DNA of 59,238 bases from contig NZ_JAEKFT010000028.1 of the NCBI RefSeq assembly GCF_018524365.1, positions 1-59,238 on the forward strand, written 5' to 3'. This document shows, piece after piece, positions 27,840 through 45,017 of this stretch (position 1 is the stretch's first letter; each line of letters starts with the position of its first letter). The translations under genes and the position numbers were made by a program. The stretch is from Denitromonas iodatirespirans (GTDB taxonomy: Bacteria; Pseudomonadota; Gammaproteobacteria; Burkholderiales; Rhodocyclaceae). Below the pieces are notes generated by a model. The model searched no databases. It had not been told where the DNA came from and was given only the letters and a program-made list of their open reading frames with translations.

Positions 27840-29165
27840 TCAGCCGTGTTCCAGCCCGATGCGGCGGAAGTCGCCGAGGATCTGCTGCAGATAGACCAAA
27901 AAGCGCGCAGCCATCACGCCGTCGATGACGCGGTGGTCCCAACTCAGGCACAGCGGCAGGATCAGGCGGGGGATGAAGGCCTTGCCGTCCCACACCGGTT
28001 TCATCTGCGCGCGGGTGACGCCGAGGATGGCCACTTCGGGGGCGTTGATGATGGGCGTGAAGCCGGTGCCGCCGACGCCGCCGAGGCTCGACACGGTGAA
28101 GCAGCCGCCGCTCATGTCGGCCGGGCCGAGTTTGCCGTCGCGCGCCTTCTTGGCCAGCGCGCCGGCTTCGGCGGCGATGGCGTAGATGCCTTTCTGGTTG
28201 GCATCGCGGATCACCGGCACCACCAGCCCGTTGGGCGTGTCGGCGGCAAAGGCGATGTGGAAGTACTGCTTGAGGACGAGGTTGTCGCCGTCGAGGCTGG
28301 CGTTGAACTCGGGGAATTTCTTCAGCGCGGCGACGCTGGCCTTGATCAGGAAGGCGAGCAGGGTGAGCTTGGCGGCTTCCGTATTCTTGGCGTTTTCGGT
28401 GTTGATCTGCTGGCGGAAGGCCTCCAGATCGGTGATGTCGGCCTCGTCGAAGTTGGTGACATGCGGGATCACCACCGAGTTGCGCGACAGGTTGGCGCCG
28501 GAGATCTTTTTGATGCGCGACAGCGGCTGGGTGTCGATGGGGCCGAACTTGGCGAAGTCGACCTTGGGCCAGGGCAGCAGGTCGAGCAGCGTGCCTGGCG
28601 CGGCCTGGGCGGCCTTGCCCGGCGTGGCGCCGCCCTTCATGGCGGCCTTGATGTGCGCGGTGACGTCCTCGCGGGTGATGCGCCCGTTGCGTCCGCTGGC
28701 GCTCACGCCGGCCAGATCGACGCCGTGTTCGCGCGCATAGTGGCGCACCGAGGGGCTGGCGTGGGTGCGCTTGCCCGAGGCGGGCGGGGCGGAGACGGCT
28801 TCGGGCGCGGCCGGGGGTGGCACCACGGTGGCGGGGGCCGGGGCGGCTGCGGCAGGCGCGGGTGCCGGTGCGGTGGGGGCGGGCGCCGGGGCCGGCTCGG
28901 GGGCCGCGGTGGCGCCGGCCGTATCGGCGGCTTCGATGCGCGCCAGGGCGCTGCCTTCGGACACGCGATCGCCGACCTTGACCAGCAGCTCGCGCACGAC
29001 GCCGGCCTGTGGGCTGGGCACGTCCATGGTGGCTTTGTCGGATTCGAGCGTGACGATGGCGTCGTCGGCGGCGACGGTGTCGCCGACCTGCACCAGCAGC
29101 TCGATCACCGGCACATCGTTGTAGTCGCCGATGTCCGGCACATTCACATCAATCAGTCGGCTCAT
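27840..29165 (-). CDS. aceF: Pyruvate dehydrogenase E2, dihydrolipoamide acetyltransferase
   Basis: E2 transfers the acetyl group from lipoamide to CoA in the pyruvate dehydrogenase complex. The 441-residue product has one N-terminal lipoyl domain (lipoylated Lys in ESDKATMDVP, about residue 45), an Ala/Pro-rich linker, a peripheral-subunit-binding domain (ASPSVRHYAREHGVDLAGV) and a catalytic domain ending with the DHRVIDG active-site motif. Many beta- and gammaproteobacterial E2 proteins carry two or three lipoyl domains; here there is only one. It follows aceE by 68 bases. Confidence 0.95.
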   Translation of the reverse strand: MSRLIDVNVPDIGDYNDVPVIELLVQVGDTVAADDAIVTLESDKATMDVPSPQAGVVRELLVKVGDRVSEGSALARIEAADTAGATAAPEPAPAPAPTAPAPAPAAAAPAPATVVPPPAAPEAVSAPPASGKRTHASPSVRHYAREHGVDLAGVSASGRNGRITREDVTAHIKAAMKGGATPGKAAQAAPGTLLDLLPWPKVDFAKFGPIDTQPLSRIKKISGANLSRNSVVIPHVTNFDEADITDLEAFRQQINTENAKNTEAAKLTLLAFLIKASVAALKKFPEFNASLDGDNLVLKQYFHIAFAADTPNGLVVPVIRDANQKGIYAIAAEAGALAKKARDGKLGPADMSGGCFTVSSLGGVGGTGFTPIINAPEVAILGVTRAQMKPVWDGKAFIPRLILPLCLSWDHRVIDGVMAARFLVYLQQILGDFRRIGLEHG

Positions 29166-29233
29166 GTCTCTACCTCGAACGGAGTGGGGCGGCGGGCACG
29201 GGGATGCACTCCCGTGCCCGCGTCAATGTGGGA

Positions 29234-31924
<2,691 letters not shown>

Positions 31925-32012
31925 GGCCCTCGGGCTCCTTGAATAGACCGCACGCGTGGTGAGGCAAGACGCGGTGATGGGGGTGGCAGGTTGCGATTCA
32001 GTCTAATGTGCT

Positions 32013-32048
32013 GATCCAGTGAATCGATTGTCCTAGTTCACTGGGATC
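32013..32048. promoter_or_regulatory. Inverted repeat upstream of aceE
   Basis: GATCCAGTGAA (32013-32023) and TTCACTGGGATC (32037-32048) are inverted repeats with one extra G, separated by 13 bases that include TTGTCCTAG. It lies about 90 bases upstream of the aceE start and is a candidate operator in the aceE/lrp divergent region. Confidence 0.55.
32027..32042. promoter_or_regulatory. CTAG-centred motif upstream of aceE
   Basis: ATTGTCCTAGTTCACT shares 13 of 16 positions with the motif upstream of the TRAP binding-protein gene (45881-45896). It overlaps the right arm of the inverted repeat. Its significance is uncertain because only the core CTAG and flanking TTG/CA are common. Confidence 0.4.
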
Positions 32049-32227
32049 GATTTTTTGGACGGAGGCGCCCACGGCCGGCGCGCCTGGCCGTCGCACCGCC
32101 GGGCGCACTGCAAACTGTAGCGTCAGAGTGCGGTTGATTTGTTGCTAAATGGGCTGAAGAAGTGCTTGAATGAGCAATAAAATCACTTCTGGATCACGCA
32201 TTGCGCAACAAAAAAAACGCTGCAGCG

Positions 32228-32689
32228 ATGGATCAGACGGATATCGCACTGCTCAACCGCCTGCAGACCGATGCCCGCATCACCAACGTGGCGCTGGCCG
32301 AGAGCGCCCACCTGTCGCCCGCGCCCTGCCTGCGCCGGGTGCGCGACCTGGAAACCTCGGGCGTGATCCGCGGCTACGTGACCCTGCTCGACCCCGAAGC
32401 GGTCGGGCTGGACATCTCGATGTTCATCCAGGTGAGCCTGGAGAAGCAGGTCGGCAGCGCGCTGCGCGTGTTCGAAGAAACCATCGACAGCTACCCAGAA
32501 GTCATGGAGTGCTACCTCATGACCGGCGACTCGGACTACCTCTTGCGGGTGGTGGCGCCCGATCTGAAAGCCCTGCAAAGCTTCATCGTCGACCGGCTGG
32601 CGCGCATCCCGCACGTGTCGAACATCCGCTCGAGCATGACGCTCAAGCAGGTCAAGTACAAAACGGCGCTGCCGATCGAACTGGCCTGA
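32228..32689 (+). CDS. Lrp/AsnC-family transcriptional regulator
   Basis: The 153-residue product begins [20 protein letters not shown], the family's N-terminal helix-turn-helix (second helix [20 protein letters not shown]), and ends with an amino-acid-sensing RAM domain (about residues 60-145). The ATG at 32228 fits the family start; an upstream TTG is in frame but less typical. It diverges from aceE and converges on lpdA, so control of the pyruvate dehydrogenase genes is a fair inference. Ectoine clusters often also encode an AsnC-type regulator, and the present gene lies 3.3 kb from eutE, so that role is an alternative. Confidence 0.9.
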
Positions 32690-32707
32690 GTGGGCGATGG
32701 CCGGGGC

Positions 32708-32793
32708 GTAGCCCGGATGCAGCGCAGCGGAATCCGGGGCAGGGGTGGATCAGCCGCCATCCCGGATTCCAGCCTGCGGCCTGCATCCGGGCG
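32708..32793. repeat. REP-like palindromic element pair
   Basis: GTAGCCCGGATGCAGCGCAG followed by CGGAATCCGGGG (32708-32739) is a well-known type of repetitive extragenic palindrome. A second, inverted unit at 32761-32793 begins CCCGGATTCC and ends CTGCATCCGGGCG. The two face each other between the lrp stop and the terminator. Confidence 0.75.
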
Positions 32794-32814
32794 AATCCAC
32801 CAGTGCCCGCGAAC

Positions 32815-32846
32815 GAGAAACGGCGACCTCGCGGTCGCCGTTTCTC
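32815..32846. terminator. Bidirectional terminator between lrp and lpdA
   Basis: GAGAAACGGCGACC and GGTCGCCGTTTCTC form a perfect 14-bp stem with a TCGC loop, followed by TTTGG on the plus strand. It lies between the converging lrp and lpdA genes. Confidence 0.88.
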
Positions 32847-32883
32847 TTTGGTGCCGCCCCGGTCGAGGCGGCGCCGTTGTTGC

Positions 32884-34677
32884 TTACTTCTTCTTCCGTG
32901 CCGGTGGCACGTCGGTGCAACTGCCGTGGGCGACTTCTGCGGCCATCCCTACGGTTTCTCCCAGTGTGGGGTGGGGGTGAATGGTTTTGCCGATATCGAC
33001 GGCATCTGCACCCATCTCGATGGCGAGGCAGACCTCGCCGATCATGTCGCCCGCGGACGGGCCGACGATGGTGCCGCCGATGACGCGGTGGGTTTCCGCA
33101 TCAAAGATCAGCTTGGTAAAGCCGTAGTCTGCGCCGTTGGCAATGGCTCGGCCGCTGGCGGCCCAAGGGAACTTGGCGGTTTCGACCTTCTTGCCCTCAA
33201 GCTTGGCTTGCGCCTCGGTGTAGCCGACCCAAGCCACTTCGGGGTGCGTGTAGGCCACGCCCGGAATGACAGTGGCGTCGAAGGCAGACTTTTCGCCGGC
33301 AGCGACTTCTGCGGCCACGTGGGCTTCATGCACCGCCTTGTGCGCCAGCATGGGCTGGCCGACGACGTCGCCGATGGCGAAGATGTGCGGCACGTTGGTG
33401 CGCATCTGCGCGTCGACCGGGATGAAGCCGCGATCGGTGACGATCACGCCGGCCTTGTCGGCTCCGACCTTCTTGCCGTTGGGCGCGCGGCCTGCGGACT
33501 GAAGAATCATGTTGTACTTGACCGGTTCGGCCGGGGCGCCATCGCCTTCGAAGCTCACGTAAAGACCGTCGTCCTTCGCCTCAACGGCGGTGGTCTTGGT
33601 CTTGAGCATGATCTTGTCGAAGCGGTGGGCGTTCTGCTTCTCCCACACCTTGACCGCATCGCGGTCCGGGCCGGCCATGAGCACGTCCATCATCTCGACC
33701 ACGTCGATGCGTGTGCCGAGCGAGGAGTACACCGTGGCCATTTCCAGACCGATGATGCCGCCGCCGATGACCAGCATCTTGGCCGGCAGCTGACGCAGTT
33801 CCAGCGCGCCGGTTGAATCGACGATGCGCGGATCTTTCGGGATGAAGGGCAGATGCACCGCCGCCGAACCGGCGGCGATGATGCACTGCTTGAAGCGGAT
33901 GACCTTCTTCTCGCCGGTCTTGTCCTGGCCGTCGCCGGTGGTGACTTCGACCTCGACATGATTCGGGTCGAGGAAGTGGCCGTAGCCGCGCACCATGTCA
34001 ACCTTGCGGCCTTTGGCCATGCCGGCCAGACCGCCGGTGAGCTTGCCGACCACGCCGGCCTTGTGCTTGCGCAGCGCATCGATGTCGACCGTGGGCTTGG
34101 CGAAGCGGATGCCGGCCGTGCCCATGTGCTGGGCCTCGTCCATCACCGCAGCCACATGCAGCAGCGCCTTGGAGGGGATGCAGCCGACGTTCAGGCACAC
34201 ACCGCCGAAGGTGGCGTAGCGCTCGACGATGACGGTCTTGAGGCCGAGGTCGGCGGCGCGGAAGGCGGCCGAGTAGCCGCCCGGGCCGGCGCCGAGCACC
34301 AGCATGTCGCACTCGATGTCGCTGCCGCCGCCGTAGGCAGCGGCGGATATTGGTGATGGGTGATGGGTGATGGGGGCCGGGGCGGCGGCCTCGGGTTTTC
34401 CACTTGCCAATACCTCTTTACCCCTCACGGCGGCGCCAGCCGCCTCGACCACGATCAGCACGCTGCCCTCGGCCACGCGGTCGCCCAGGGCGACCTTGAC
34501 TTCCTTGACCACGCCGGCGACCTCGGAGGGTACGTCCATGGTGGCCTTGTCGGATTCGAGCGTGACGATGGCGTCATCGACCGCGATGGTGTCGCCGACC
34601 TTGACGAACAGTTCGATCACCGGCACATCGGCGTAATCGCCGATGTCGGGGACTTTGACTTCCTGCAGTTCACTCAT
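32884..34677 (-). CDS. lpdA: Dihydrolipoamide dehydrogenase (E3) with N-terminal lipoyl domain
   Basis: E3 reoxidises dihydrolipoamide in the pyruvate dehydrogenase complex. The 597-residue product has an N-terminal lipoyl domain (ESDKATMDVP), a linker, an FAD motif (LGAGPGGYSAAFRAADLG) and redox disulfide (GGVCLNVGCIPSKALLH). An NAD motif (VIGGGIIGLEMATVYSSLG) and catalytic HPHPTLGE follow. Fusion of lipoyl domain to E3 is common in betaproteobacteria and Neisseria. The linker includes an odd segment (PAPITHHPSPISAAAYGGGS) encoded by tandem GGTGATG units. The ATG at 34677 has a GGAG site. It is separated from aceEF by lrp. Confidence 0.96.
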   Translation of the reverse strand: MSELQEVKVPDIGDYADVPVIELFVKVGDTIAVDDAIVTLESDKATMDVPSEVAGVVKEVKVALGDRVAEGSVLIVVEAAGAAVRGKEVLASGKPEAAAPAPITHHPSPISAAAYGGGSDIECDMLVLGAGPGGYSAAFRAADLGLKTVIVERYATFGGVCLNVGCIPSKALLHVAAVMDEAQHMGTAGIRFAKPTVDIDALRKHKAGVVGKLTGGLAGMAKGRKVDMVRGYGHFLDPNHVEVEVTTGDGQDKTGEKKVIRFKQCIIAAGSAAVHLPFIPKDPRIVDSTGALELRQLPAKMLVIGGGIIGLEMATVYSSLGTRIDVVEMMDVLMAGPDRDAVKVWEKQNAHRFDKIMLKTKTTAVEAKDDGLYVSFEGDGAPAEPVKYNMILQSAGRAPNGKKVGADKAGVIVTDRGFIPVDAQMRTNVPHIFAIGDVVGQPMLAHKAVHEAHVAAEVAAGEKSAFDATVIPGVAYTHPEVAWVGYTEAQAKLEGKKVETAKFPWAASGRAIANGADYGFTKLIFDAETHRVIGGTIVGPSAGDMIGEVCLAIEMGADAVDIGKTIHPHPTLGETVGMAAEVAHGSCTDVPPARKKK

Positions 34678-34743
34678 GCGGGCTCCTGCCCCTGCCACGC
34701 CACACGGGCGGGGCAGGGGTGACGGAATGGATCGGAAGGCGGA

Positions 34744-35925
34744 TCAGATCTTGGCCAGCGCTTGCTCCAGATCGGCCACCAGGTCGTCGCCGTTCTCGAT
34801 GCCGGCCGAGTAGCGGATGAGGCTCTCGGGGATGCCGGCGTTGGCGCGTTCCTGCTCGGTCAGCTCGACATGGCTGGTGGTGCGCGGCGGGCCGACGAGG
34901 GTGCCGACCGAGCCGAGGCTGGCGGCCTTGTGGGCGTACTTGAGGTTCTCCAGCACGGTCACCACGCTGGGGAAGCCGCCCTTGAGCGAGAAGCTCAGCA
35001 TGCCGCCGAAGCCGCGCATCTGCTTTTTCGCGATGGCGTGGTTCAAATGCGTTTCCAGGCCGGGGTAGAAGACCTGGTCGACCTTGGGGTGCTGCGACAG
35101 GAAGGTGGCGACCTTCATGGCGTTTTCGTTGTGGCGCGCGATGCGCAGCTCAAGCGTCTTCATGCCGCGCAGGATCATGTAGGCCGACTGCGGGTGCAGG
35201 GTGGCGCCGGTGATCTCGCGGTAGTGGAAGATCTGGTCGATCAGCGCCTTCTTGCCGACGGCCAGGCCGCCCATCACGTCCGAGTGGCCGTTGAGGTACT
35301 TGGTGGCGCTATACACCACGACGTCGGCACCGAGGCTGATCGGGCGCTGGTTGATCGGCGTGGCGAAGGTGTTGTCGACCACCACGATGGCGCCGTTGTC
35401 GTGGGCCACCTTGGCGAGGCGCTCGATGTCGACGATCTTCAGCGTGGGGTTGGTCGGCGTCTCGAGGTAGAGCACCTTGCAGCCCTTCTTGACCTCGCGC
35501 TCGATGGCGTCGAAATCGCTGGTGTCGACCATGCATACGTCGACCTTCATCTGCGGCAGGAACTTGATGAAGATCTTGTTCGAGCCGCCATAGGTATCCT
35601 TGATCGCCACCACGCGGTCGCCCGGCCCGAGCAGGGTGAACAGCGTGTTGCTGATCGCTGCCATGCCGGTGGAGAAGCTGGTGGCTTCTTCGCCGCCGTC
35701 CATCAGGCGGATCTTCTCTTCGAGCGGGCGCACCGTGGGGTTGGTGTTGCGCGAGTAGATGTGGCCTTTCTTCTTGCCCATGCCGACCTGGTGCCATTCC
35801 TCCATGTCGTCGTAGCCGAAGGTGACGGAGTTGTAGACCGGCACGCAGATGGCGTTCTCGGCGAACAGGTGCTCCTCGCCGGCCCAGACCGAGGCGGTTC
35901 CGGTGTTGGTGTCGTAGTCGTTCAT
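34744..35925 (-). CDS. Cys/Met-metabolism PLP enzyme (cystathionine gamma-synthase family)
   Basis: The 393-residue product is a fold-type I PLP enzyme of the cystathionine gamma-synthase / methionine gamma-lyase family. Visible features are the substrate-loop SRNTNPTVRPLEEKI, the cofactor strand ETPTNPTLKIVDI, the PLP Lys in YSATKYLNGHSD, and the C-terminal SLGSVGTLVGPPRTTSH. It could synthesise cystathionine, or perform gamma-elimination; the family does not resolve from sequence alone. The ATG has an AAGGAG site. It lies 76 bases after eutE and 66 bases before lpdA on the same strand, so it may be transcribed with the ectoine genes. Confidence 0.88.
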   Translation of the reverse strand: MNDYDTNTGTASVWAGEEHLFAENAICVPVYNSVTFGYDDMEEWHQVGMGKKKGHIYSRNTNPTVRPLEEKIRLMDGGEEATSFSTGMAAISNTLFTLLGPGDRVVAIKDTYGGSNKIFIKFLPQMKVDVCMVDTSDFDAIEREVKKGCKVLYLETPTNPTLKIVDIERLAKVAHDNGAIVVVDNTFATPINQRPISLGADVVVYSATKYLNGHSDVMGGLAVGKKALIDQIFHYREITGATLHPQSAYMILRGMKTLELRIARHNENAMKVATFLSQHPKVDQVFYPGLETHLNHAIAKKQMRGFGGMLSFSLKGGFPSVVTVLENLKYAHKAASLGSVGTLVGPPRTTSHVELTEQERANAGIPESLIRYSAGIENGDDLVADLEQALAKI

Positions 35926-36001: not shown

Positions 36002-36994
36002 TCAGCCGACCACCTCGGCAATTACCGCGAGGGTGTCGCCGCCGCTGATGAGTCCGGGAAAGTGCCGTGCCGCGAGGATGCCGCTGCGGCTGGCGCGATA
36101 CTCGACCGGCGCGCTGCCGGTACGGGTCACGTCATAGACCCGTCCGACGACATCGCCGGTGCTTACGGTGTCGCCCAGATCGACGCACATCTCCAGCAGG
36201 CCGTCATGGGTCGAGGCGACGTAGCAGTCGCCATCGGGCATGTCGAGCTTGATCGACTGGCGTGGCGAGACCTCGCCCTGGCAGATGCCGCAATGGATCA
36301 GGAAGTCGCGCACGCCGCGCTCGGCGATGGCGATGCTCCTGGCGGTGGCCGTGCCGCCGCCGCCCAGTTCGGTGGAGACGAACACCTTGCCCGCCTCTTC
36401 GGCCGCGGTGTCGAACATGCCGACGCTGTCGAGCTCGAGCATGTGCATCGAATAGGGCGCGCCGAAGGCCGCCATCGCCGCCTGGCAACGCGCTTCCTGG
36501 GCCTTGTCGTCGAGCACATGGATGGCCGCGAAGGGCAGGAAGTCGAGCGTCTTGCCGCCGGAGTGGATGTCGAGCACATAGTCGGCGCGCGGCAGCAGGT
36601 GGCGCTGGATGTAGTCGGCGATCTTCTCGGTCACCGTGCCGTCCGGCTTGCCGGGAAAGGCGCGGTTGAGGTTGCCCTTGTCGATCGGCGAGGTGCGCGT
36701 GCCGGCGCGAAAGGCCGGATAGTTGAGAAAGGGCACGATGATCACGCAGCCGCTGACCTGCTCCGGCGTGAGGCTGTTGGTGAGTTTGCGCAGCGCCACC
36801 GCGCCTTCGTACTCGTCGCCATGGTTGGCGCCGGTGAGCAGCGCGGTGGGGCCCTTGCCGTTGCGCACCACGGTGACCGGAATCATCACCGCGCCCCAGG
36901 CCGCGTCGTCGCGCGAGTAGGGCAGCTTGAGAAAGCCGTGCTGGACGCCGTCGCGGTCGAAGTCGACGGTCGGGCTGATCGGTGAGGGTTTCAT
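36002..36994 (-). CDS. eutE: N-alpha-acetyl-diaminobutyrate deacetylase (EutE/DoeB), ectoine degradation
   Basis: EutE (DoeB) deacetylates N-alpha-acetyl-2,4-diaminobutyrate made by the ectoine hydrolase, giving acetate and diaminobutyrate. The 330-residue product belongs to the succinylglutamate desuccinylase/aspartoacylase zinc-peptidase family. The zinc ligands are visible in GANHGDEYEG (His, Glu) and DIHSGG (His), and the catalytic Glu probably in STELGGGG. The ATG at 36994 lies five bases after the eutD copy-1 stop, indicating tight coupling with the hydrolase, its biochemical partner. Confidence 0.9.
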   Translation of the reverse strand: MKPSPISPTVDFDRDGVQHGFLKLPYSRDDAAWGAVMIPVTVVRNGKGPTALLTGANHGDEYEGAVALRKLTNSLTPEQVSGCVIIVPFLNYPAFRAGTRTSPIDKGNLNRAFPGKPDGTVTEKIADYIQRHLLPRADYVLDIHSGGKTLDFLPFAAIHVLDDKAQEARCQAAMAAFGAPYSMHMLELDSVGMFDTAAEEAGKVFVSTELGGGGTATARSIAIAERGVRDFLIHCGICQGEVSPRQSIKLDMPDGDCYVASTHDGLLEMCVDLGDTVSTGDVVGRVYDVTRTGSAPVEYRASRSGILAARHFPGLISGGDTLAVIAEVVG

Positions 36995-36999
36995 GACAC

Positions 37000-38187
37000 T
37001 CACTCCTTGACGAACAGTTTGCGCGGCGTGTTGCACAGGGGCTCGACGCCGGTGTCGGTGATGAGGATGCTTTCAGTGATCTCCAGGCCCCAGTCGTCCT
37101 GCCACAGGCCGGGCATGAAGTGGAAGGTCATGCCGGGCTGGAGCACGGTGGTGTCGCCGGGGCGCAGGCTCATGGTCCGCTCGCCCCAGTCGGGCGGGTA
37201 GCTCGCGCCGATGGGGTAGCCGCAGCGGCTGCTCTTGTCGATGCCATAGCGCTTGAGCACGGCGAAGAAGGCATTGGCGATGTGCTCGCAGGTGTTGCCG
37301 GGCCTGGCCGCGTCGAGGCCGGCCTCGATGCCTTCGATGATGGCTTTTTCGGCCTCGATGAAATGCTTGGGCGGGCGGCCCAGATACACCGTGCGCGACT
37401 GCGGGCAGTGATAGCGGCGGTAGCAGCCGGTGATCTCGAAGAAGGTGCCCGAGTCGGCCGGCATGGGCGAGTCGTCCCAGGTCAGGTGCGGGGCAGCGGC
37501 ATCGGCGCCGGTGGGCAGCATCGGCACGATCGAGGGGTAGTCGCCGCCGTGGCCCTCAGCGCCGAGGATGGCGGTCGAATAGATCTGCGCGACCAGTTCG
37601 TTCTTGCGCATGCCCGGCTCGATCACTTCGACGATCTTCGCGTGCATCTGCTCGACGATGCGCGCGGCGATGCGCATGTAGGCGATCTCCTGCGGCGACT
37701 TGACGGCGCGCTGCCAGTTCACCAAGCCGTTGGTGTCGACAAAGGTGGCCTGCGGCAGATGTTTTTGCAGCGAGGCGAAGGCGGCGGCGCTGAAGTAGTA
37801 GTTGTCCATCTCCACGCCGATGCGCTTGGCCTGCCAGCCGCGCGCGGCGATCACCTCGGTGGACAGGTAGTCCATCGGGTGGCGCTCGGTCGACATCACA
37901 TAGTGGTCGGGGTAGCGCAGGATGTTCTCGGGCGCGATGTAGGCGGTGCGCGCCGCGCCGTTGCCGTCCATGCCGCGGCCGAACCACAGCGGCTCGCCCT
38001 CCAGCGCGACCAGCACGCACTGGTGCACATAGAAGGACCAGCCGTCATAGCCGGTGAGCCAGTTCATGTTGGCCGGGTCGGTGACGATCAGCAGGTCCAC
38101 ACCCTTTTTCGCCATGGCGGCGCGGGTCTTGGCCAGGCGCTGGGCGTATTCGCTGCGCTCGAAGGGCAGTTTCACGTCGGGGGTCAT
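37000..38187 (-). CDS. eutD: Ectoine hydrolase EutD/DoeA, copy 1
   Basis: EutD (DoeA) opens the ectoine ring to N-acetyl-diaminobutyrate. The 395-residue product has the creatinase-type N-terminal domain (about residues 1-150, TDPANMNWLTGYDGWSFYVH) and an M24 pita-bread domain (GAEGHGGDYPSIVP, DSGTFFEITGCYRRYHC, YPIGASYPPDWGE, PGMTFHFMPGLW, LEITESILIT). From about residue 101 onward it is almost identical to copy 2, but residues 67-100 differ strongly (GRGMDGNGAARTAYIAPENI here). It lies 47 bases after copy 2 and five before eutE. Confidence 0.9.
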   Translation of the reverse strand: MTPDVKLPFERSEYAQRLAKTRAAMAKKGVDLLIVTDPANMNWLTGYDGWSFYVHQCVLVALEGEPLWFGRGMDGNGAARTAYIAPENILRYPDHYVMSTERHPMDYLSTEVIAARGWQAKRIGVEMDNYYFSAAAFASLQKHLPQATFVDTNGLVNWQRAVKSPQEIAYMRIAARIVEQMHAKIVEVIEPGMRKNELVAQIYSTAILGAEGHGGDYPSIVPMLPTGADAAAPHLTWDDSPMPADSGTFFEITGCYRRYHCPQSRTVYLGRPPKHFIEAEKAIIEGIEAGLDAARPGNTCEHIANAFFAVLKRYGIDKSSRCGYPIGASYPPDWGERTMSLRPGDTTVLQPGMTFHFMPGLWQDDWGLEITESILITDTGVEPLCNTPRKLFVKE

Positions 38188-38234
38188 CTCGCTTGTCTCC
38201 CTTGATCGGTATTGTTCGATTCGTCCGCCGGCGA

Positions 38235-39422
38235 TCAGGGCTTGACGAAGAGTTGGCGGGGCGTGTTGCACAGGGGCTCGACGCCGGTGTCGGTGATGAG
38301 GATGCTTTCGGTGATCTCCAGGCCCCAGTCGTCCTGCCACAGGCCGGGCATGAAGTGGAAGGTCATGCCGGGCTGGAGCACGGTGGTGTCGCCGTGGCGC
38401 AGGCTCATGGTCCGCTCGCCCCAGTCGGGCGGGTAGCTCGCTCCGATGGGGTAGCCGCAGCGGCTGGCCTTGTCGATGCCATAGCGCTTGAGCACGGCGA
38501 AGAAGGCATTGGCGATGTGCTCGCAGGTGTTGCCCGGTTTGGCCGCCGCGAGGCCGGCCTCGATGCCTTCGATGATGGCCTTTTCGGCCTCGATGAAATG
38601 CTTGGGCGGGCGGCCCAGATACACCGTGCGCGACTGCGGGCAGTGATAGCGGCGGTAGCAGCCGGTGATCTCGAAGAAGGTGCCCGAGTCGGCCGGCATG
38701 GGCGAATCGTCCCAGGTCAGGTGCGGGGCGGCGGCATCGGCGCCGGTGGGCAGCATCGGCACGATCGAGGGGTAGTCGCCGCCGTGGCCCTCGGCGCCGA
38801 GAATCGCGGTCGAATAGATTTGCGCCACCAGCTCGTTCTTGCGCATGCCCGGCTCGATCACTTCGACGATCTTCGCGTGCATCTGCTCGACGATGCGCGC
38901 GGCGATGCGCATGTAGGCGATCTCCTGCGGCGACTTGACGGCGCGCTGCCAGTTCACCAGGCCGTTGGTGTCGATGAAGCTGGCTTGTGGCAGATGCTTT
39001 TGCAGCGAGGCGAAGGCGGCGGCGCTGAAGTAGTAGTTGTCCATCTCCACGCCGATGCGCTTGGCCTGCCAGCCGCGCGCGGCGATGACCTCGGTGGACA
39101 GGTAGTCCATCGGGTGGCGCTCGACCGACTGCACATAGTGGTCGGGGTAGCCGATCATGTTGTCGCGAGACAACCAGCTGGTGAGCTTGGCGCCGTTGGT
39201 GTCCTGCCCGCGGCCGAACCATACCGGCTCGCCTTCGAGCGCGACCAGCACGCACTGGTGCACATAGAAGGACCAGCCGTCATAGCCGGTGAGCCAGTTC
39301 ATGTTGGCCGGATCGGTGACGATCAGCAGCTCGACGCCGCGCTGCGCCATGGCGGCGCGGGTCTTGGCCAGGCGCCGGTCGTATTCGGCGCGCTCGAAGG
39401 GCAGGCGGGCGGTGTGCGTCAT
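38235..39422 (-). CDS. eutD: Ectoine hydrolase EutD/DoeA, copy 2
   Basis: A second 395-residue M24-family ectoine hydrolase of exactly the same length as copy 1, in tandem with a 1235-base offset. Residues from about 101 to the end differ from copy 1 at only a handful of positions (for example FIDTNG/FVDTNG, LRHGDTT/LRPGDTT, RQLFVKP/RKLFVKE). The stretch from 67 to 100 reads VWFGRGQDTNGAKLTSWLSR and then DNMIGYPDHYVQSV, and the first 30 residues also vary. It starts five bases after the eutC stop. The duplicate could serve a different ring substrate such as 5-hydroxyectoine; this is inference. Confidence 0.9.
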   Translation of the reverse strand: MTHTARLPFERAEYDRRLAKTRAAMAQRGVELLIVTDPANMNWLTGYDGWSFYVHQCVLVALEGEPVWFGRGQDTNGAKLTSWLSRDNMIGYPDHYVQSVERHPMDYLSTEVIAARGWQAKRIGVEMDNYYFSAAAFASLQKHLPQASFIDTNGLVNWQRAVKSPQEIAYMRIAARIVEQMHAKIVEVIEPGMRKNELVAQIYSTAILGAEGHGGDYPSIVPMLPTGADAAAPHLTWDDSPMPADSGTFFEITGCYRRYHCPQSRTVYLGRPPKHFIEAEKAIIEGIEAGLAAAKPGNTCEHIANAFFAVLKRYGIDKASRCGYPIGASYPPDWGERTMSLRHGDTTVLQPGMTFHFMPGLWQDDWGLEITESILITDTGVEPLCNTPRQLFVKP

Positions 39423-39427
39423 GGGGC

Positions 39428-40417
39428 TCAGGCCTCGAAGCTCACGCCCAGCCCGCGTTCGGTGGCGCGCGTGTAGGCGAAGTTGGCGATGGCGGTGTCC
39501 TGGGCGCCGGTGCCGGTCAGGTCGCACAGGGTGACGTCGTCGGCATGCGAGCGGCCCGGGCGCTGCCCGGCGATCACCTGGCCGAGCTCGGCCGGCTGGG
39601 CGTCGGCAGCGATCGTGCCGGCGTCGATGGCGTGATGCAGCTCGCCGAGCACGCGGACCTGGGCGAGCCGGTCGCACACATAGGTGCAGGCGGCCAGGGC
39701 GTCGGGGGCGATCTCGTTCTTGTGCTCGGCGTCCGAGCCCATGGCGGTGATGTGCAGGCCGGGGCGCAGGTGGCGCGCCTGGATCAGCGGCTCGCGGCTC
39801 GGGGTGGTGGTGATGGCGACATCGGCCTCGGCCATGGCGCGATCGATGTCGGTGCACGGCGTGATGGCGATGCCCAGCTCGCGCCCCATGGTGTCGGCAA
39901 AGCGTTGTGCGGCGTCGGCATGCGGTGCCCACACGGTGGCCGACGTGATGTCGCGCACCAGCGTCAGCGCCGTCAATTGCAGGCGGGCCTGTTCGCCGGC
40001 GCCGATGATGGCGGCGCGATGCGCGTCCTCGCGGACCAGCCAGCGCGCGGCGACGGCACCGGCGGCGGCCGTGCGCACCGCGGTGAGGTAGCCGTTGTCG
40101 AGCAGCAGGGCTTCGAGGATGCCGGTGCGCGCCGACCACAGCATCATCATGCCGTTGAGGCTCGGCAGGCCGAGTTTGGGGTTGTCGAAGAAGCCCGGGC
40201 TGACCTTGATGGCGAAGCTGTCGAGGCCCGGCAGGTAGGCGGTCTTGACGTCCACTTCGCCGTTGTGCGCATGGATGTCCAGACGCAGGATCGGCGGCAT
40301 GATGACTTCTTCGGTGGCGAGGATCCGAAAGGCCTGCTCGATGCAGTCGATGGCCGCCAGGTCCAGCGTGATGCTGGCGCGCAGATCCTTTTCGTTCAAC
40401 AAAATGACATTCGACAT
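39428..40417 (-). CDS. eutC: Ectoine utilisation protein EutC, ornithine cyclodeaminase family
   Basis: EutC acts with EutA and EutB in hydroxyectoine conversion; the exact step is not firmly established. The 329-residue product is of the ornithine cyclodeaminase/mu-crystallin family, with NAD-binding IIGAGEQARLQL, the substrate loop AFAIKVSPGF-like sequence (DSFAIKVSPGFFDNPKLGLP) and ITTTPSREPLI. It is the first gene of eutC-eutD2-eutD1-eutE after enuR, with a 136-base gap in between that carries a candidate regulator site. Confidence 0.88.
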   Translation of the reverse strand: MSNVILLNEKDLRASITLDLAAIDCIEQAFRILATEEVIMPPILRLDIHAHNGEVDVKTAYLPGLDSFAIKVSPGFFDNPKLGLPSLNGMMMLWSARTGILEALLLDNGYLTAVRTAAAGAVAARWLVREDAHRAAIIGAGEQARLQLTALTLVRDITSATVWAPHADAAQRFADTMGRELGIAITPCTDIDRAMAEADVAITTTPSREPLIQARHLRPGLHITAMGSDAEHKNEIAPDALAACTYVCDRLAQVRVLGELHHAIDAGTIAADAQPAELGQVIAGQRPGRSHADDVTLCDLTGTGAQDTAIANFAYTRATERGLGVSFEA

Positions 40418-40553: not shown

Positions 40554-41948
40554 TCAGAGCGTGGCGTGGACATGGGGATATTGCTGAAACACGCTGCGCA
40601 GGGTCCACAGCGCGGTGTGCATGCGCACGTCGCTGCCTTCGGCGCCGAGGCAGATGCGGATCGCCTCGGGCCGCGGTGTGCCGAGCACCATGAAGGGGTC
40701 GGGCAGGGTGACGGCGATATGGCTGTTGCGCAGTTGCTGCGCCAGGCTGTCGAGCCGCCAGTGCTCGGGAATGCGCAGCCAGGCCGAGAGAGATTCCGGA
40801 TGGCTGCCGAGGAGGTAGTCGCCCAGCACGTCGAGCACCATGGCGTGGCGGCGCGCGAGGCGTTCGCGCTGGATGTCGATCAGCTGATTGGCAGTGCCGT
40901 CGGCGATCCAGCGGGTGGCCACTTCGGCCATCAGCGGCGTGGCCATCCAGCAATTGACACGCAGGATGCTCTCGACGCGCAGGGCCATCTTGCGGGGCAT
41001 GCTCAGGTAGCCGGTGCGCAGGCCGGTGAGCACCGATTTGGTGAAGCTGGTGGCATAGAAACCGAGCTCGGGGAGATGGTTGGCGATCGGTTGTATGCGC
41101 TTGGACAAAAGCGGGCCGAAGACATCGTCCTCGATCACATACACGCCGTAGCGGTCGGCAATGCGGGCGATCGCGCGGCGGCGCGCATCGGGCATGATCG
41201 ACGAGGTCGGGTTGTTCAGGTTGGGGGTGGTGACCAGCGCGGTGATGCGCTCGCTGGCGCACATCTCTTCGAAATGATCGGGGTGGATGCCGTATTCGTC
41301 GGTGTCCAGCCCCTTGAGCGTGAAGCCGAGCACCTGGGCGATGCCGATCACGCCGTGGTCGGTGATGTTCTCGCTCAGCACCACGTCGCCGGGGCTGACC
41401 AGCGAGGCCAGCGCCAGGAAGACGGCATGCGAGGCGCCGTTGGTGATCAGCGTGGTTTCGACCGCCGCATGGTGGCCCAGTGTGGCCATCCACTCGACGC
41501 CGGCCGCCCGGTGGTATTCGAAGCCGGCGATCGGCCGGTAGGCGCGCATCCACGGCTGGTCGACCTGGGTGGCCAGATCGGCGCAGGCCTTGCGCCACAG
41601 GCGGCCGTGCTCGGCGGTGTGCACGATGCGCACGATGGAGAAATCGATCAGCGCGCGCTCGGCCCGGTCGAGCATGTAGGTGGCGACCTTCTCGGTGACA
41701 CGCTGGGCGACAAAACTGCCGCGGCCGACCTCGCAGCGGATCAGGCCGTGCTGCTCCAGTTCCTTGTAGGCGTTGGTGACGGTCTGCACGCTGATGCCCA
41801 GCGCCTGGCTGACCTGGCGCTGCGGCGGCAGGCGCGTGCCTTCGGCCAGCGCGCCGCTGTCGATGTCGCGGGAGATGGCCTCGACGAGCACCTTGTACTT
41901 CGACTCCCCGCCGCGAACCGCTTCGAGTGCCTTGCGCCAGTGCTCCAT
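40554..41948 (-). CDS. enuR: MocR-type PLP-dependent regulator EnuR
   Basis: EnuR controls ectoine catabolism; in characterised relatives it senses diaminobutyrate derivatives through its PLP. The 464-residue product has an N-terminal GntR winged helix (about residues 15-80: GTRLPPQRQVSQALGISVQT, then VTNAYKELEQHGLI), a linker, and an aminotransferase-like domain with PLP Lys in YATSFTKSVLTGLRTGYL. It begins 35 bases after the eutB stop, so it is in the transporter-eutAB transcript and would be autoregulated if the candidate site at 45701-45716 is its operator. Confidence 0.9.
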   Translation of the reverse strand: MEHWRKALEAVRGGESKYKVLVEAISRDIDSGALAEGTRLPPQRQVSQALGISVQTVTNAYKELEQHGLIRCEVGRGSFVAQRVTEKVATYMLDRAERALIDFSIVRIVHTAEHGRLWRKACADLATQVDQPWMRAYRPIAGFEYHRAAGVEWMATLGHHAAVETTLITNGASHAVFLALASLVSPGDVVLSENITDHGVIGIAQVLGFTLKGLDTDEYGIHPDHFEEMCASERITALVTTPNLNNPTSSIMPDARRRAIARIADRYGVYVIEDDVFGPLLSKRIQPIANHLPELGFYATSFTKSVLTGLRTGYLSMPRKMALRVESILRVNCWMATPLMAEVATRWIADGTANQLIDIQRERLARRHAMVLDVLGDYLLGSHPESLSAWLRIPEHWRLDSLAQQLRNSHIAVTLPDPFMVLGTPRPEAIRICLGAEGSDVRMHTALWTLRSVFQQYPHVHATL

Positions 41949-41983: not shown

Positions 41984-42958
41984 TCAGATCTCCTGCGCGC
42001 AGACGATGCGGCGGTGAAGCGCCATGTCGATGTTCGACCCGCTCACCAGCACCGCGGTGGTGCCCGGCGCTGTGAGGCGGCCGGTGAGCAGGGCGGCGAT
42101 GCCGACGGCGCCGCTGCCTTCGATGACGATCTGTTCGCGCGCATAGGCATGGCGGATGGCGGCCGCGATCTCATCCTCGCCCACCAGCACCACATCGTCC
42201 ACCAGCGTCTGCGCCATGTGGAAGGTGTAGCGGTTGTCCAGGCCGATGCCGCCGCCGAGCGAGTCGGCCAGCGTTTCGAGCTCCTCGACCTGCACCGGTT
42301 TGCCGGCGGCGAGGCTGGCGTGCATGGCGCAGCCGCGCTCCATGGTGACGCCGATCACGCGGATCTGCGGCGATGCGCGCTTGAGCGCCAGCGCCACGCC
42401 GGCCAGCAGGCCGCCGCCGGAGAGCGGCACCAGCACGGTGTCCAGGCTCGGCAGATCGTCGAGCAGCTCGAGCCCGACCGTGCCCTGGCCGGCGATGATG
42501 TCGGGGTGGTCGAAGGGCGGCAGCAGGGTCAGCCCTTCGTCGCGCACCAGGCGCGCCACTTCGACATCCGCTTCGTCCTGGCTGTTGCCGACGATATGCA
42601 CCTCGGCGCCGAGCGCGCGGATCGCCTCGACCTTGTTCGACGGCACCAGCTTCGACATGCAGATCACCGCGCGCACGCCGAGGCGGTGCGCGGCATAGGC
42701 CAGCGCACGGCCGTGGTTGCCGGTGGACACGGCGATCACGCCGCGGGCGCGGGCATCGTCATCCAGGCAGAGCAGCGCGTTAGTGGCGCCGCGCAGCTTG
42801 AAGCTGCCGGTGATCTGCCGGCATTCGAGCTTGAGATGCACCTCGCCGCCGGTGTGCTCGGAGAGGCTGGGCGAGTGGAGCAGCTGGGTGTGCAGCACGT
42901 GGCCGCGCAGCCGGTGGCGGGCGCGGTAGATGTCGATGGGGCGGATGTCGTCAGTCAT
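41984..42958 (-). CDS. eutB: Ectoine utilisation protein EutB, threonine dehydratase family
   Basis: EutB is a fold-type II PLP enzyme implicated in the conversion of hydroxyectoine to ectoine. The 324-residue product has the PLP Lys in GSFKLRGA (about residue 50), the SGGGLLAG phosphate-binding loop and the serine/threonine dehydratase core (STGNHGRALAYAAHRLG). Start: the ATG at 42958 overlaps the eutA stop by eight bases. Together with eutA and eutC this arrangement is diagnostic for hydroxyectoine utilisation rather than generic threonine catabolism. Confidence 0.88.
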   Translation of the reverse strand: MTDDIRPIDIYRARHRLRGHVLHTQLLHSPSLSEHTGGEVHLKLECRQITGSFKLRGATNALLCLDDDARARGVIAVSTGNHGRALAYAAHRLGVRAVICMSKLVPSNKVEAIRALGAEVHIVGNSQDEADVEVARLVRDEGLTLLPPFDHPDIIAGQGTVGLELLDDLPSLDTVLVPLSGGGLLAGVALALKRASPQIRVIGVTMERGCAMHASLAAGKPVQVEELETLADSLGGGIGLDNRYTFHMAQTLVDDVVLVGEDEIAAAIRHAYAREQIVIEGSGAVGIAALLTGRLTAPGTTAVLVSGSNIDMALHRRIVCAQEI

Positions 42959-43721
42959 GGGTGAAACCTTGTGCGGGGGTTCGGAACAGTCGTCCGGGCG
43001 CCGACGGGCCGGCGGCCAGACCGGTGAGATGCAGCGCATGCCAGGCAATGGCCTGGTTGCTGGTGACCACCGGGCGGCCGAGCTTCGCTTCGAGGCGCTC
43101 GACGGCACGGCTCGCGCGCAGCGCGGTGCAGGAGATGAACAAGGCATCGGCCTCGTCGGCCATGGCCGCCACGCCGGCGTCCACCAGCGTGCCGGGGTCG
43201 AGCGCGGTCATGGCGTAGTCGTCGTCCATGTCGAGGCCCGACACATTGAGCACCTCGAGGCCGCGGCTGGTGTAGTACTCGCCCAGCGCGCGATTGACCT
43301 CGGTCCGGTAGGGCGTGAGGATCGACACCCGGCGTGCGCCCAGGTGGGCGAGCGCCGCCAGGCTGGCGGTGACCGGCGTGGTCTGGTGGTGGCAGGGGCG
43401 CGCGCGGGCGATCAGCGCCAGCGTCTCGGCCTCGCCCAGGGCGATGGTGCCCGAGGTGCAGCCATACACCACCACGTCGAGCCCGAGCCCGGGCAGCAGA
43501 TCGCGGCCGGCGCGGGGCAGGTCGTCGGCGACCCGGCGCAGCGCTTCGAGGCTCATCGGGTTTTCATGGCGCACCCGGTTGCTGTACAGGCCGACCGTGT
43601 CGGGCAGCATGCGGCGCAGGTCGGCCTCGCTGCACAGGTCGGTGGCCAGCGCCAGCAGGCCGATGCGCGCCTGCTCGGCAGGCGTCATCGGGTCGTGGTG
43701 CGGGAGGGTGTCAATTCTCAC
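42951..43721 (-). CDS. eutA: Ectoine utilisation protein EutA, Asp/Glu racemase family
   Basis: EutA belongs to the Asp/Glu racemase / maleate isomerase superfamily and is thought to act with EutB and EutC on 5-hydroxyectoine. The 256-residue product keeps both active-site cysteines (VVYGCTSGTIA and LFISCTALRAS). It starts with GTG at 43721, with a GGAG about eight bases upstream, 15 bases after the TRAP permease stop. Its overlap with eutB shows co-translation. Confidence 0.86.
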   Translation of the reverse strand: MRIDTLPHHDPMTPAEQARIGLLALATDLCSEADLRRMLPDTVGLYSNRVRHENPMSLEALRRVADDLPRAGRDLLPGLGLDVVVYGCTSGTIALGEAETLALIARARPCHHQTTPVTASLAALAHLGARRVSILTPYRTEVNRALGEYYTSRGLEVLNVSGLDMDDDYAMTALDPGTLVDAGVAAMADEADALFISCTALRASRAVERLEAKLGRPVVTSNQAIAWHALHLTGLAAGPSAPGRLFRTPAQGFTHD

Positions 43722-43736: not shown

Positions 43737-45017
43737 TCAGTGGAAGGCCAGCCGTGGCAGCAGCAGCGCGATGTCGGGCACCAGCACCAGCAGCAGCGTG
43801 GCGAACAGCAGGATGATGATGAACGGCGGCGTGCCGGCGATGACTTCCAGGTAGGGTTTTCGGAAGATCGCGCAGGCCGTGAAGATGTCGCAGCCGAAAG
43901 GCGGTGTGCACGATCCGATCGCCATCTGCAGCGTGACCAGCGTGCCGACCAGCACCGGATCGATGCCCGCGGCATTGACCAGCGGCATGAAGATCGGCGT
44001 GAGGATCAGCGTCACCACGATCGGGTCGACGAACATGCAGCCAACGAAGAACGATAGCGAGATGACGAACAGGATCGTGTAGGGGCCGGCGTCGGCCAGA
44101 CCGATCGCGGCGATCAATTGCTGCGGCAGCTGGGCGAAGGAAATGATCCACGAGAAGGCGGCGCCGGTGCCGACCAGCACGAACACGATGCCGGTGATCA
44201 GTCCGGTGGAGTAGGCGATGCGTGGGATGTCCGAGAGCTTGACGGCGCGGTAGATGCACACTTCGAGGATGAAGGCGTAGAGCACCGCGATGGCCGCCAC
44301 CTCGGTGGGGCTGAAGTAGCCGGCATACAGCCCGCCGATGATCAGCACCGGGAACATCAGCGCGAGCGCCGCCTTGCGCGAGGCGCGAAAGCGGTCGGCC
44401 CAACCGATGCGCGGGGCGAGCGGAATCTTGTAGTGCCACGCGTACCACACCGAGTAGACGCTGAACAGCAGCAGGATCAGCAGGCCCGGCCCGATGCCGG
44501 CCAGGAACAGTTCGCCGATCGACACCTTGCCGACGATGCCGAAGACGATCATGCCGATGCTGGGCGGGATCAGGAAGGCGATGTCGGAGGCGTTGATGAT
44601 CAGTGCGGTGGTGAAGCGGTCGTCGTAGCCGGCCTGCAGCATGCGCGGGCGGATTGGTCCGCCGATGGCCACCACGGTGGCCTGGGTGGACCCCGAGATC
44701 GCGCCGAACAGCGTACACGCCACGGCGGTGGTGACGGCCAGGCCGCCCTTCAGGTGGCCGAAGAAGGTCATCGCCAGATCGAGCAGCCGGTTGGCGGTAT
44801 GCCCGCGGGTGACGATGTCGGCGGCCAGAATGAACATGGGCACCGTGATCAGCGCCACCGGGCTGATGCCGCTGATCATCTGCTGCACGATGATGTCCGA
44901 CTTGAGCATCGGGAAGTAAACGAAGAAGCCGACGAAAGTCGCCACCAGCATCGGGACGATCATCGGATAGCCGAGCAGCAGCAGGACGAGCATGACGAGA
45001 ATGATCGTGAGAGCCAT
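43737..45017 (-). CDS. TRAP transporter large permease (DctM family), likely ectoine uptake
   Basis: This is the sodium-coupled large membrane subunit of a TRAP importer. The 426-residue product has about 12 helices with the DctM family features (PMIVPMLVATFVGFFVYFPM; GSTQATVVAIGGPIRPRML; IPPSIGMIVFGIVGK; CTPPFGCDIFTACAI). It follows the small subunit by 11 bases and precedes eutA by 15, so its cargo is very probably ectoine or hydroxyectoine, as for UehABC/TeaABC systems. Confidence 0.92.
   Translation of the reverse strand: MALTIILVMLVLLLLGYPMIVPMLVATFVGFFVYFPMLKSDIIVQQMISGISPVALITVPMFILAADIVTRGHTANRLLDLAMTFFGHLKGGLAVTTAVACTLFGAISGSTQATVVAIGGPIRPRMLQAGYDDRFTTALIINASDIAFLIPPSIGMIVFGIVGKVSIGELFLAGIGPGLLILLLFSVYSVWYAWHYKIPLAPRIGWADRFRASRKAALALMFPVLIIGGLYAGYFSPTEVAAIAVLYAFILEVCIYRAVKLSDIPRIAYSTGLITGIVFVLVGTGAAFSWIISFAQLPQQLIAAIGLADAGPYTILFVISLSFFVGCMFVDPIVVTLILTPIFMPLVNAAGIDPVLVGTLVTLQMAIGSCTPPFGCDIFTACAIFRKPYLEVIAGTPPFIIILLFATLLLVLVPDIALLLPRLAFH

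Follow-up and report, generated by a model that had tools for sequence, protein, structure and literature searches.

Hydrolases of the DoeA/EutD family (TIGR02993), represented in the PDB by H. elongata DoeA (6twj, 6twk, 6yo9), are the closest known relatives of the enzymes considered here, with which they share the fold (modelled for one of our two copies) and an operon comprising eutE, eutC, eutB and enuR. Unlike the known DoeA/EutD systems, the locus described in this work carries two tandem eutD copies that differ in a copy-specific segment, codons 67–100. Such a pattern is known from the primate red and green opsins, duplicates which are homogenised by gene conversion while the functionally divergent part escapes it. 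A similar pattern is found here, but in a bacterial catabolic enzyme and with a functional difference that is as yet putative. In the main text of PMC13188858 the EutD proteins of Aromatoleum and Denitromonas are placed on "two divergent branches" and the UehPQM transporter is noted; this text makes no use of the terms tandem, two copies, paralog or gene conversion. These branches are probably the same genes as the pair studied here.

The eut operon and its two eutD genes

The window, that is, the whole stretch of 59,238 nucleotides analysed, holds the eut operon of a Denitromonas-like bacterium (Table 1). Re-reading of the sequence confirmed the initial annotation as to two eutD genes of the same length lying in tandem, each of 395 codons plus stop and offset by 1235 bp. 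Both the upstream copy (u) and the downstream copy (d), which is followed directly by eutE, score above the NCBI equivalog cut-off of TIGR02993 (741.4 and 743.0 bits against 613), and their products differ at 34 of 395 residues (91% identity).

Table 1. Features of the eut operon, in positions of the window
Feature	Position	Strand	Remarks
cystathionine-gamma-synthase-family PLP enzyme	34744..35925	-	after eutE in this lineage
eutE/doeB, N-acetyl-diaminobutyrate deacetylase	36002..36988	-	TIGR02994, 591 bits (cut-off 402.7)
eutD downstream copy (d)	37000..38187	-	395 aa; adjoins eutE; derived motif GRGMDGNG...RYPD
d homogenised part, codons 101–395	37003..37887	-	
d diverged segment, codons 67–100	37888..37989	-	codons 73, 75, 79, 91 fixed between copies across 9 genomes
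eutD upstream copy (u)	38235..39422	-	395 aa; adjoins eutC; motif usual in EutD: GRGQD...GYPD
u homogenised part, codons 101–395	38238..39122	-	
u diverged segment, codons 67–100	39123..39224	-	strand 67–71, helix 72–81, strand 89–92 (AF2 model)
eutC	39428..40417	-	over profile cut-off
enuR/ehuR, MocR-type regulator of ectoine use	40554..41948	-	NF052286
eutB, hydroxyectoine utilisation dehydratase	41984..42955	-	over profile cut-off
eutA-like	42951..43721	-	224 bits, below curated cut-off 318
TRAP transporter large permease	43737..45017	-	

The pair is present in eight genomes besides the source, and in all nine genomes with a fully readable pair, which belong to four genera, it lies between eutC and eutE. 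Four of the eight other genomes (G075, G156, G237 and G298) consist of a single contig, which rules out an assembly artefact. In four further genomes eutD is broken, by contig ends in G002 and G208 and by runs of N in G122 and G332, as would be expected of a repeat not spanned by short reads; these genomes were excluded from the pair statistics, and only one of their sequences, the intact d copy of G208 (L017), entered the comparison with EutD of other lineages. Of the 13 eutD-bearing genomes of the family (nine readable pairs, four interrupted), none showed an intact single-copy eutD. Outside the family, no tandem pair was found among the EutD-bearing genomes drawn from the order (2), the phylum (60) and the class (22), sets which partly overlap and in which, as in the family draw, the best few candidates per genome, mostly four or five, were scored.

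Distribution of the differences

The concentration of the differences in the N-terminal part, as initially annotated, stands, with some correction of the counts: after residue 101 there are 8 differences and not about ten, and within residues 67–100 they occupy 16 of 34 positions rather than most of them. The remainder comprises 9 differences in residues 1–30 and 1 in residues 31–66, or, put otherwise, 10 in residues 1–31 and none in residues 32–66, an identical stretch that the initial annotation does not mention. The corresponding dS/dN values of u against d are 0.33/0.24 (1–30), 0.13/0.012 (31–66), 0.23/0.40 (67–100) and 0.12/0.016 (101–395). This clustering goes beyond chance, the best count in 34 residues being matched by none of 2000 shuffles of the differences in each of the nine pairs; the best window starts within residues 58–67 in eight pairs, G237 being the exception with a start at residue 2.

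Residues 3–6 separate u from d within the five Denitromonas-type pairs. As no position of residues 1–30 separates the copies in all nine genomes, the differences in this N-terminal stretch do not, as judged from the alignment, constitute a conserved specificity feature.

Gene conversion along the gene

Trees built from the two parts of the gene contradict each other. In the tree of codons 67–100 the u and d copies separate with support of 99/96, whereas in that of codons 101–394 the copies group largely by genome. There the copy split is rejected: a tree constrained to unite the u copies loses 799.6 log-likelihood units (p-AU 0.0004). In G237 and in G298 the two copies form a clade with support of 100/99 or better. 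The variable nucleotide sites behave likewise: genome grouping is favoured by 208 of 289 sites in codons 101–394, against 3 that favour copy grouping, and by only 7 of 55 in codons 67–100, where 30 favour copy grouping. The step-count trees used for this site comparison have an arbitrary order inside clades, of which the likelihood tree test is independent.

Synonymous and non-synonymous divergence was compared between parts of the gene over the nine pairs, uniform synonymous divergence having been set beforehand as the refuting result, and the divergence was found to be non-uniform. The paralog dS is 0.01–0.17 in codons 101–394 and 0.23–0.67 in codons 67–100. For the former codons, the ortholog dS between the two clades amounts to 0.39–0.40; the genes eutC, eutE and enuR have a between-clade dS of 0.40–0.83 (six genomes). 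Homogenisation is weaker in the Denitromonas type, with a paralog dS of 0.11–0.17 against an ortholog dS of 0.17–0.18 in codons 101–394 and only some pairs forming clades. G298 has 842 identical bases in a row from codon 92, right after the last fixed difference.

The copy split in codons 67–100, set against the genome grouping in codons 101–394 with the synonymous sites in agreement, shows that the duplication predates the genera compared and that the rest of the gene has been repeatedly homogenised by gene conversion, which the initial annotation had proposed, with selection as the alternative, for a pair with retained divergence in this segment. Simple purifying selection on the catalytic part is ruled out as the only cause by the homogenisation of synonymous sites as well. 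Independent duplications in each genus are disfavoured by the copy split in codons 67–100 and by the common site between eutC and eutE.

Fixed residues and selection

Five nucleotide differences are fixed between the copies over the nine pairs, all of them nonsynonymous and located at residues 73, 75, 79 and 91; in the catalytic part no difference is fixed over these pairs. At the four residues u retains those ordinary in EutD, except for Thr75 in the Denitromonas type, and Arg91 occurs in all ten d copies, in none of nine u copies and in none of 51 EutD of other lineages, a set in which single-copy status is not proven for each and several are mutually close relatives. By this comparison of residues, it is d that has changed. 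Met73 is also found in 20 of the 51 and in H. elongata DoeA, so that this change alone need not alter activity. All residues that are invariant in a 48-row alignment are present in both copies.

Selection likely keeps codons 67–100 apart, to judge by their substitutions. Among the five Denitromonas-type pairs, 15 nonsynonymous and 0 synonymous differences are fixed, while the corresponding numbers of variable differences inside the copies are 19 and 10 (Fisher p 0.009), although the same test, a polymorphism test applied across species, gives p 0.41 in the remaining four genomes and p 0.31 in the full set of nine. In codons 67–100 dN exceeds dS in part of the pairs only, with about 23 synonymous sites behind this comparison. 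Part of the persistence of the segment could be passive, because a diverged segment resists conversion.

The N-terminal domain as a proposed cap

The AF2 model of u (pLDDT 87.8) has the creatinase-type two-domain fold, like DoeA, and its top PDB match is H. elongata DoeA 6twk with a TM of 0.95; d is 91% identical. The creatinase residues that touch the substrate from the partner subunit align, in a weak match, with about residues 50–56 of EutD, which are identical in u and d, a point against the cap reading given below.

In passages of PMC4108388, PMC4213023 and PMC5723419 the N-domain of the partner subunit is described as shaping or reaching the active site of M24-fold enzymes, which supports the role initially ascribed to this domain for relatives, not for EutD itself. 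By analogy, segment 67–100 would belong to an N-domain that caps the active site of the partner, and the copies would thus differ in the cap. A passage of PMC5723419 reports that in aminopeptidase P (PepP) the S1' site is extended by Trp88', which comes from the N-domain of the adjacent subunit, and that its replacement by Ala eliminates activity. PepP has an FxRxxD motif ahead of Trp88', as EutD has at 69–74, but the hhalign match of the two N-domains is not significant (probability 0.11 of 100) and the equivalence is a lead only.

Interpretation and alternatives

At the level of the genes, the comparisons demonstrate the age of the duplication, the conversion and the retained residues; taken together, the pattern suggests that the two enzymes may do slightly different jobs. 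We think it fairly probable that the pair is an old tandem duplicate with a core homogenised by conversion and a segment 67–100 kept different, so that the caps differ in function. The in-place duplication of eutD took place before the Denitromonas-type genus parted from its relatives of the Azoarcus and Aromatoleum kind, and both copies were kept. Recurrent conversion overwrites the catalytic domain along with most other codons, leaving one catalytic scaffold common to u and d, and probably one dimer interface, while selection would hold codons 67–100 apart, chiefly at residues 73, 75, 79 and 91. If EutD is a head-to-tail creatinase-type dimer, with each active site capped by the N-domain of the partner subunit, u and d would cap a common catalytic core differently, and mixed dimers would be expected because of the common scaffold. 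The difference would concern substrate or product handling, or the docking of EutE, rather than the chemistry.

The initial annotation proposed that one copy acts on ectoine and the other on 5-hydroxyectoine, which we regard as unlikely. The operon does have eutB and eutC over the cut-off and a eutA-like gene, and the segment lies in the domain that shapes the active-site mouth in relatives; however, a plasmid cluster of Shinella has eutB and eutC with a single doeA. Moreover, one EutD is described, in a passage of PMC8739950, as opening both the ectoine and the hydroxyectoine rings, so that a second enzyme would not be needed. A mere gain in dosage, with two working copies raising the EutD level and 67–100 as a neutral island too diverged for conversion, seems to us rather improbable. 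It accords with the clear conversion, with a catalytic part free of fixed differences and with a selection test that fails in the four genomes outside the Denitromonas type as well as in the full set of nine, and sequence divergence itself hampers recombination. Yet all fixed differences over nine pairs change amino acids, and it is at the same residues that the copies differ across four genera. Besides, the paralog dN of the segment (0.20–0.40) is above the between-clade ortholog dN (0.18–0.19), whereas its paralog dS (0.23–0.67) is not clearly above the ortholog dS (0.41–0.54), and each segment is constrained in the Denitromonas type (dN/dS 0.033/0.176 for d and 0.088/0.271 for u).

The diverged block is rather sharply delimited, and Met73 recurs jointly with Met98 in EutD of Acidimicrobiia-like records; both points would suit a d segment acquired from a foreign EutD by recombination, the mosaic being kept afterwards. 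We hold this to be very unlikely, since no donor appears in the comparison set of 51 EutD from other lineages: the identity of the d segment to any of them reaches at best 0.71–0.76 (five genomes), and its best match varies from genome to genome. An obligate heterodimer, in which u and d need each other's cap and neither homodimer works, would explain why no intact single copy occurs among the 13 family genomes, as near-identical tandem repeats are easily deleted. It is, in our opinion, highly doubtful, given that both copies have every residue found invariant over the 48 rows aligned and that genomes with one EutD match only are common outside the family.

Returning to a homogenised core with differing caps, an extended version, which we put forward tentatively as a rather unlikely one, would have one core with two exchangeable caps, giving two homodimers and a mixed dimer from one operon. 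The cap would set the substrate, the product isomer or the hand-over to EutE. Such an arrangement would go with a distinct ectoine route in these bacteria, where the cystathionine-gamma-synthase-family enzyme encoded nearby cleaves diaminobutyrate and an adjacently encoded dehydrogenase complex oxidises the resulting 2-oxoacid.

Gene conversion may be seen here as a natural filter, by which dispensable differences are repeatedly erased while a few residues (73, 75, 79, 91) are kept apart in four genera; the retained residues would point to sites that matter for an N-domain function. The copies u and d may also serve as ready-made variants for testing how the partner N-domain tunes creatinase-fold enzymes.

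A role of one copy in recycling gamma-ADABA to ectoine is disfavoured by the absence of EctC (PF06339), which was found in none of the 13 genomes with this eutD, nor in any of 14 control genomes in the same search. In a second search EctC was found in two of three other genomes, not Shinella but both Billgrantia.

The tandem eutD genes and their occurrence

The two eutD genes lie where the initial annotation had placed them, in tandem on the minus strand, with 395 codons apiece and an offset of 1235 bases, and both are ectoine hydrolases according to the NCBI equivalog model. The pair is surrounded by eutC, eutE, enuR, eutB, a eutA-like gene and a TRAP permease. The eutA-like gene may be a divergent EutA, since its score of 224 bits stays under the cut-off of 318 (TIGR02990). 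A third close eutD copy was not found in the window genome, in which the sole other match (28%) is a protein scoring as PepP. The upstream and downstream copies differ at 34 residues, distributed as 9 in residues 1-30, 1 in 31-66 (residue 31), 16 in 67-100 and 8 in 101-395. Block by block, dS/dN amounts to 0.33/0.24, 0.13/0.012, 0.23/0.40 and 0.12/0.016, respectively.

Features of the window, and eutD codons with a difference between the copies fixed over nine pairs
Feature	Position	Strand	Upstream copy	Downstream copy
eutD, upstream copy (adjoins eutC)	39422-38235	-
eutD, downstream copy (adjoins eutE)	38187-37000	-
Cystathionine-gamma-synthase-family PLP enzyme, lipoyl-domain dihydrolipoyl dehydrogenase, E1 and E2 genes	27840-35925
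Lrp-type regulator gene, between E1 and E3 genes	32201-32689	+
eutA-like gene	42951-43721
eutD codon 73			Gln	Met
eutD codon 75			Ala or Thr	Gly
eutD codon 79			Lys or Arg	Ala or Asp
eutD codon 91			Gly	Arg

A match to this eutD was obtained in 6 of 10 genomes of the genus and in 13 of 395 genomes of the family (4 of 68 genera). Two complete tandem copies are present in nine of the 13 (G000, G004, G005, G008, G009, G075, G156, G237 and G298), always between eutC and eutE; in the other four (G002, G208, G122 and G332), eutD is cut off at a contig end or gapped by N, and an intact single copy was seen in none of the 13. Beyond the family, draws from the order, phylum and class yielded no tandem pair; these draws are overlapping samples of larger groups with the best few candidates scored per genome. 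There were matches in 2 of 398 other genomes of the order (both single), 60 of 397 of the phylum (eight with two to four non-adjacent EutD-like places) and 22 of 368 of the class (in one of them at two places, each on its own contig).

At five loci (L099, L100, L101, L008 and L053), the assemblies stop or carry runs of N within the tandem genes, and the second copy would therefore be under-reported in databases. Five genomes of one genus (G830, G834, G850, G899 and G1037) have three or four EutD-like genes each, in separate places; the extra ones are only 35-51% identical to the downstream copy and may act on different substrates. Klebsiella plasmids also bear a doeA-type ectoine hydrolase, with a match in 28 of 343 plasmid records and a doeA annotation on 20 of 21 plasmid records among the matches listed (H18, H21-H40).

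Gene conversion along the pair

The nine pairs, five of the Denitromonas type and four from another clade of Azoarcus- and Aromatoleum-like genera, were aligned by codon. In codons 101-394, each copy resembles its tandem partner more than its counterpart from the other clade: dS between paralogs is 0.01-0.17, versus 0.39-0.40 between orthologs of the two clades. For the single-copy neighbours eutC, eutE and enuR, the between-clade dS is 0.40-0.83 (6 genomes). The homogenisation is weaker among the Denitromonas-type pairs (0.11-0.17 for paralogs versus 0.17-0.18 for orthologs). The pattern is reversed in codons 67-100, where paralogs differ on average at 24-27% of bases and between-clade orthologs at 19-22%. 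The earlier proposal that gene conversion kept the catalytic part alike is thus upheld both by the uneven synonymous divergence, homogenised in codons 101-394, and by trees that conflict between gene parts.

The tree of codons 67-100 places upstream and downstream copies on opposite sides of one branch (support 99/96), whereas in that of codons 101-394 the copy label changes nine times, with at least five changes forced by well-supported branches. In the latter, the log-likelihood falls by 799.6 when the upstream copies are held together (p-AU 0.0004). There, the G237 and G298 pairs are fully supported clades and those of G000 and G004 are clades with 84/94 and 91/95, the remaining pairs being unresolved as pairs. 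Three of the nine pairs were held together in codons 67-100; the test rejected this constraint in G000 (p 0.003) and in G298 (p 0.007), and did not reject it in G237 (p 0.16). Grouping by genome is favoured by 208 of the 289 variable sites in codons 101-394 and by 13 of 33 in codons 31-66 (grouping by copy: 3 in each case), by 7 of 55 in codons 67-100 (by copy: 30) and by 14 of 51 in codons 2-30 (by copy: 15, practically even). The clearest recent conversion among the pairs is that of G298, with a run of 842 identical bases from codon 92, directly past the last fixed difference at codon 91.

Residues 1-30 differ in all pairs, inconsistently: residues 3-6 separate the copies in the Denitromonas type, no position among the 30 does so in all nine genomes, and the amino-acid difference is small in G298 (0.10) and G156 (0.07). 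We infer that this front-end divergence is an edge effect of conversion tracts ending where homology stops, and not a function.

Residues kept apart between the copies

Over the nine pairs, in codons 2-394 without gaps, only five nucleotide differences between the copies are fixed, all of them nonsynonymous and none beyond the four codons of the table. This 5:0 ratio of nonsynonymous to synonymous changes compares with 36:15 for sites variable within copies (p 0.31). The corresponding figures are 15:0 versus 19:10 in the five Denitromonas-type pairs (p 0.009) and 7:1 versus 25:14 in the other four genomes (p 0.41). Selection probably maintains a few residues of the segment 67-100, and a passive resistance of the diverged sequence to conversion may contribute.

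At position 91, the 51 EutD compared from other lineages most often have Gly (30/51); Ala75 occurs in 44 of them and Lys or Arg79 in 35, while residue 73 is Gln in 31 and Met in 20. Arg91 is found in 10 of 10 downstream copies, in no upstream copy and in none of the 51. Judging from these sequences, the downstream copy is the changed one, since upstream-type residues prevail in the other lineages and Arg91 is absent from them. The upstream copy has also drifted in the Denitromonas type (Thr75, Leu80).

Structure and proposed function

In an AF2 model of the upstream copy (pLDDT 87.8), whose best solved-structure match is substrate-bound H. elongata DoeA (TM 0.95), the segment forms a strand (67-71), a helix (72-81) and a second strand (89-92). 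The differing helix positions 73, 75, 79, 80 and 82 alternate with 71, 74, 77, 78 and 81, which are invariant in 48 rows, so that one helix face is fixed and the other free to differ. In relatives with this fold, according to the accessible portions of the respective papers, the N-domain of one chain walls the tunnel to the active site of the other in RdDddP (PMC4108388), Asp45 from the N-domain of the other monomer reaches the active site of E. coli prolidase (PMC4213023), and the S1' site of P. aeruginosa PepP is extended by Trp88 from the neighbouring subunit, an Ala substitution of which abolishes activity (PMC5723419). Counted on the alignment, Trp88 is residue 81 of the PepP of the window genome (P0003), six after the Asp of the motif FxRxxD, which EutD has at 69-74. 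Its equivalent in EutD might lie at about 80-83, inside the segment, which we take as a lead only because the EutD-PepP alignment is not significant. The creatinase residues touching the substrate from the partner presumably correspond, by a weak alignment, to about EutD 50-56; these are identical in both copies, which counts against the lead.

We think that a shared core with two caps is probably the best-fitting reading: conversion would leave the copies interchangeable in their catalytic domain and shared interface, and they would differ in the cap. The division of the copies between ectoine and hydroxyectoine put forward in the initial annotation is possible, but it is not called for, as one EutD is described, in the portion of PMC8739950 consulted, as opening both rings. 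Recycling of gamma-ADABA was also considered as a role and is unlikely, because ectoine synthase was found in 0 of the 13 genomes with this eutD, in a family search that does detect it in two Billgrantia genomes. Two EutD branches have already been noticed in print; the tandem pair, its conversion and the segment are without account in the literature searched, as far as the partial texts go, and the terms 'tandem', 'two copies', 'paralog' and 'gene conversion' are absent from the main text, as available, of PMC13188858, the one paper traced that deals with these genes and mentions the branches.

Genes past eutE

All seven lineage loci read past eutE (L013, L014, L015, L102, L105 and, from gapped genomes, L100 and L101) continue with a cystathionine-gamma-synthase-family enzyme and a lipoyl-domain dihydrolipoyl dehydrogenase, and an aceE-like E1 comes next in the four reaching further (L100, L101, L102 and L105). 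Six genomes of other lineages supplied eight stretches for comparison (three of only about 4 kb), and in these eutE adjoins none of the three genes. After eutE, G841, a genome with one eutD match, has a semialdehyde-dehydrogenase-like gene and an aminotransferase, which we read from its gene place as a diaminobutyrate aminotransferase; it has a 77% relative in G510, also after eutE, and matches of at most 38% or none in the nine tandem genomes. This absence of a close aminotransferase, together with the gene set past eutE, suggests that the tandem lineage uses diaminobutyrate in a different way. Such a route could convert diaminobutyrate to 2-oxobutyrate by gamma-elimination and oxidise the product to propionyl-CoA; a single literature search brought up no paper on it. 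Against it, the E1 and E2 encoded in the window exceed the pyruvate dehydrogenase cut-offs, so these genes may belong to a normal complex of that kind. Of 101 genomes sampled from the family, two (G000 and G075) have a close relative of the PLP enzyme, and both of them also carry eutD.
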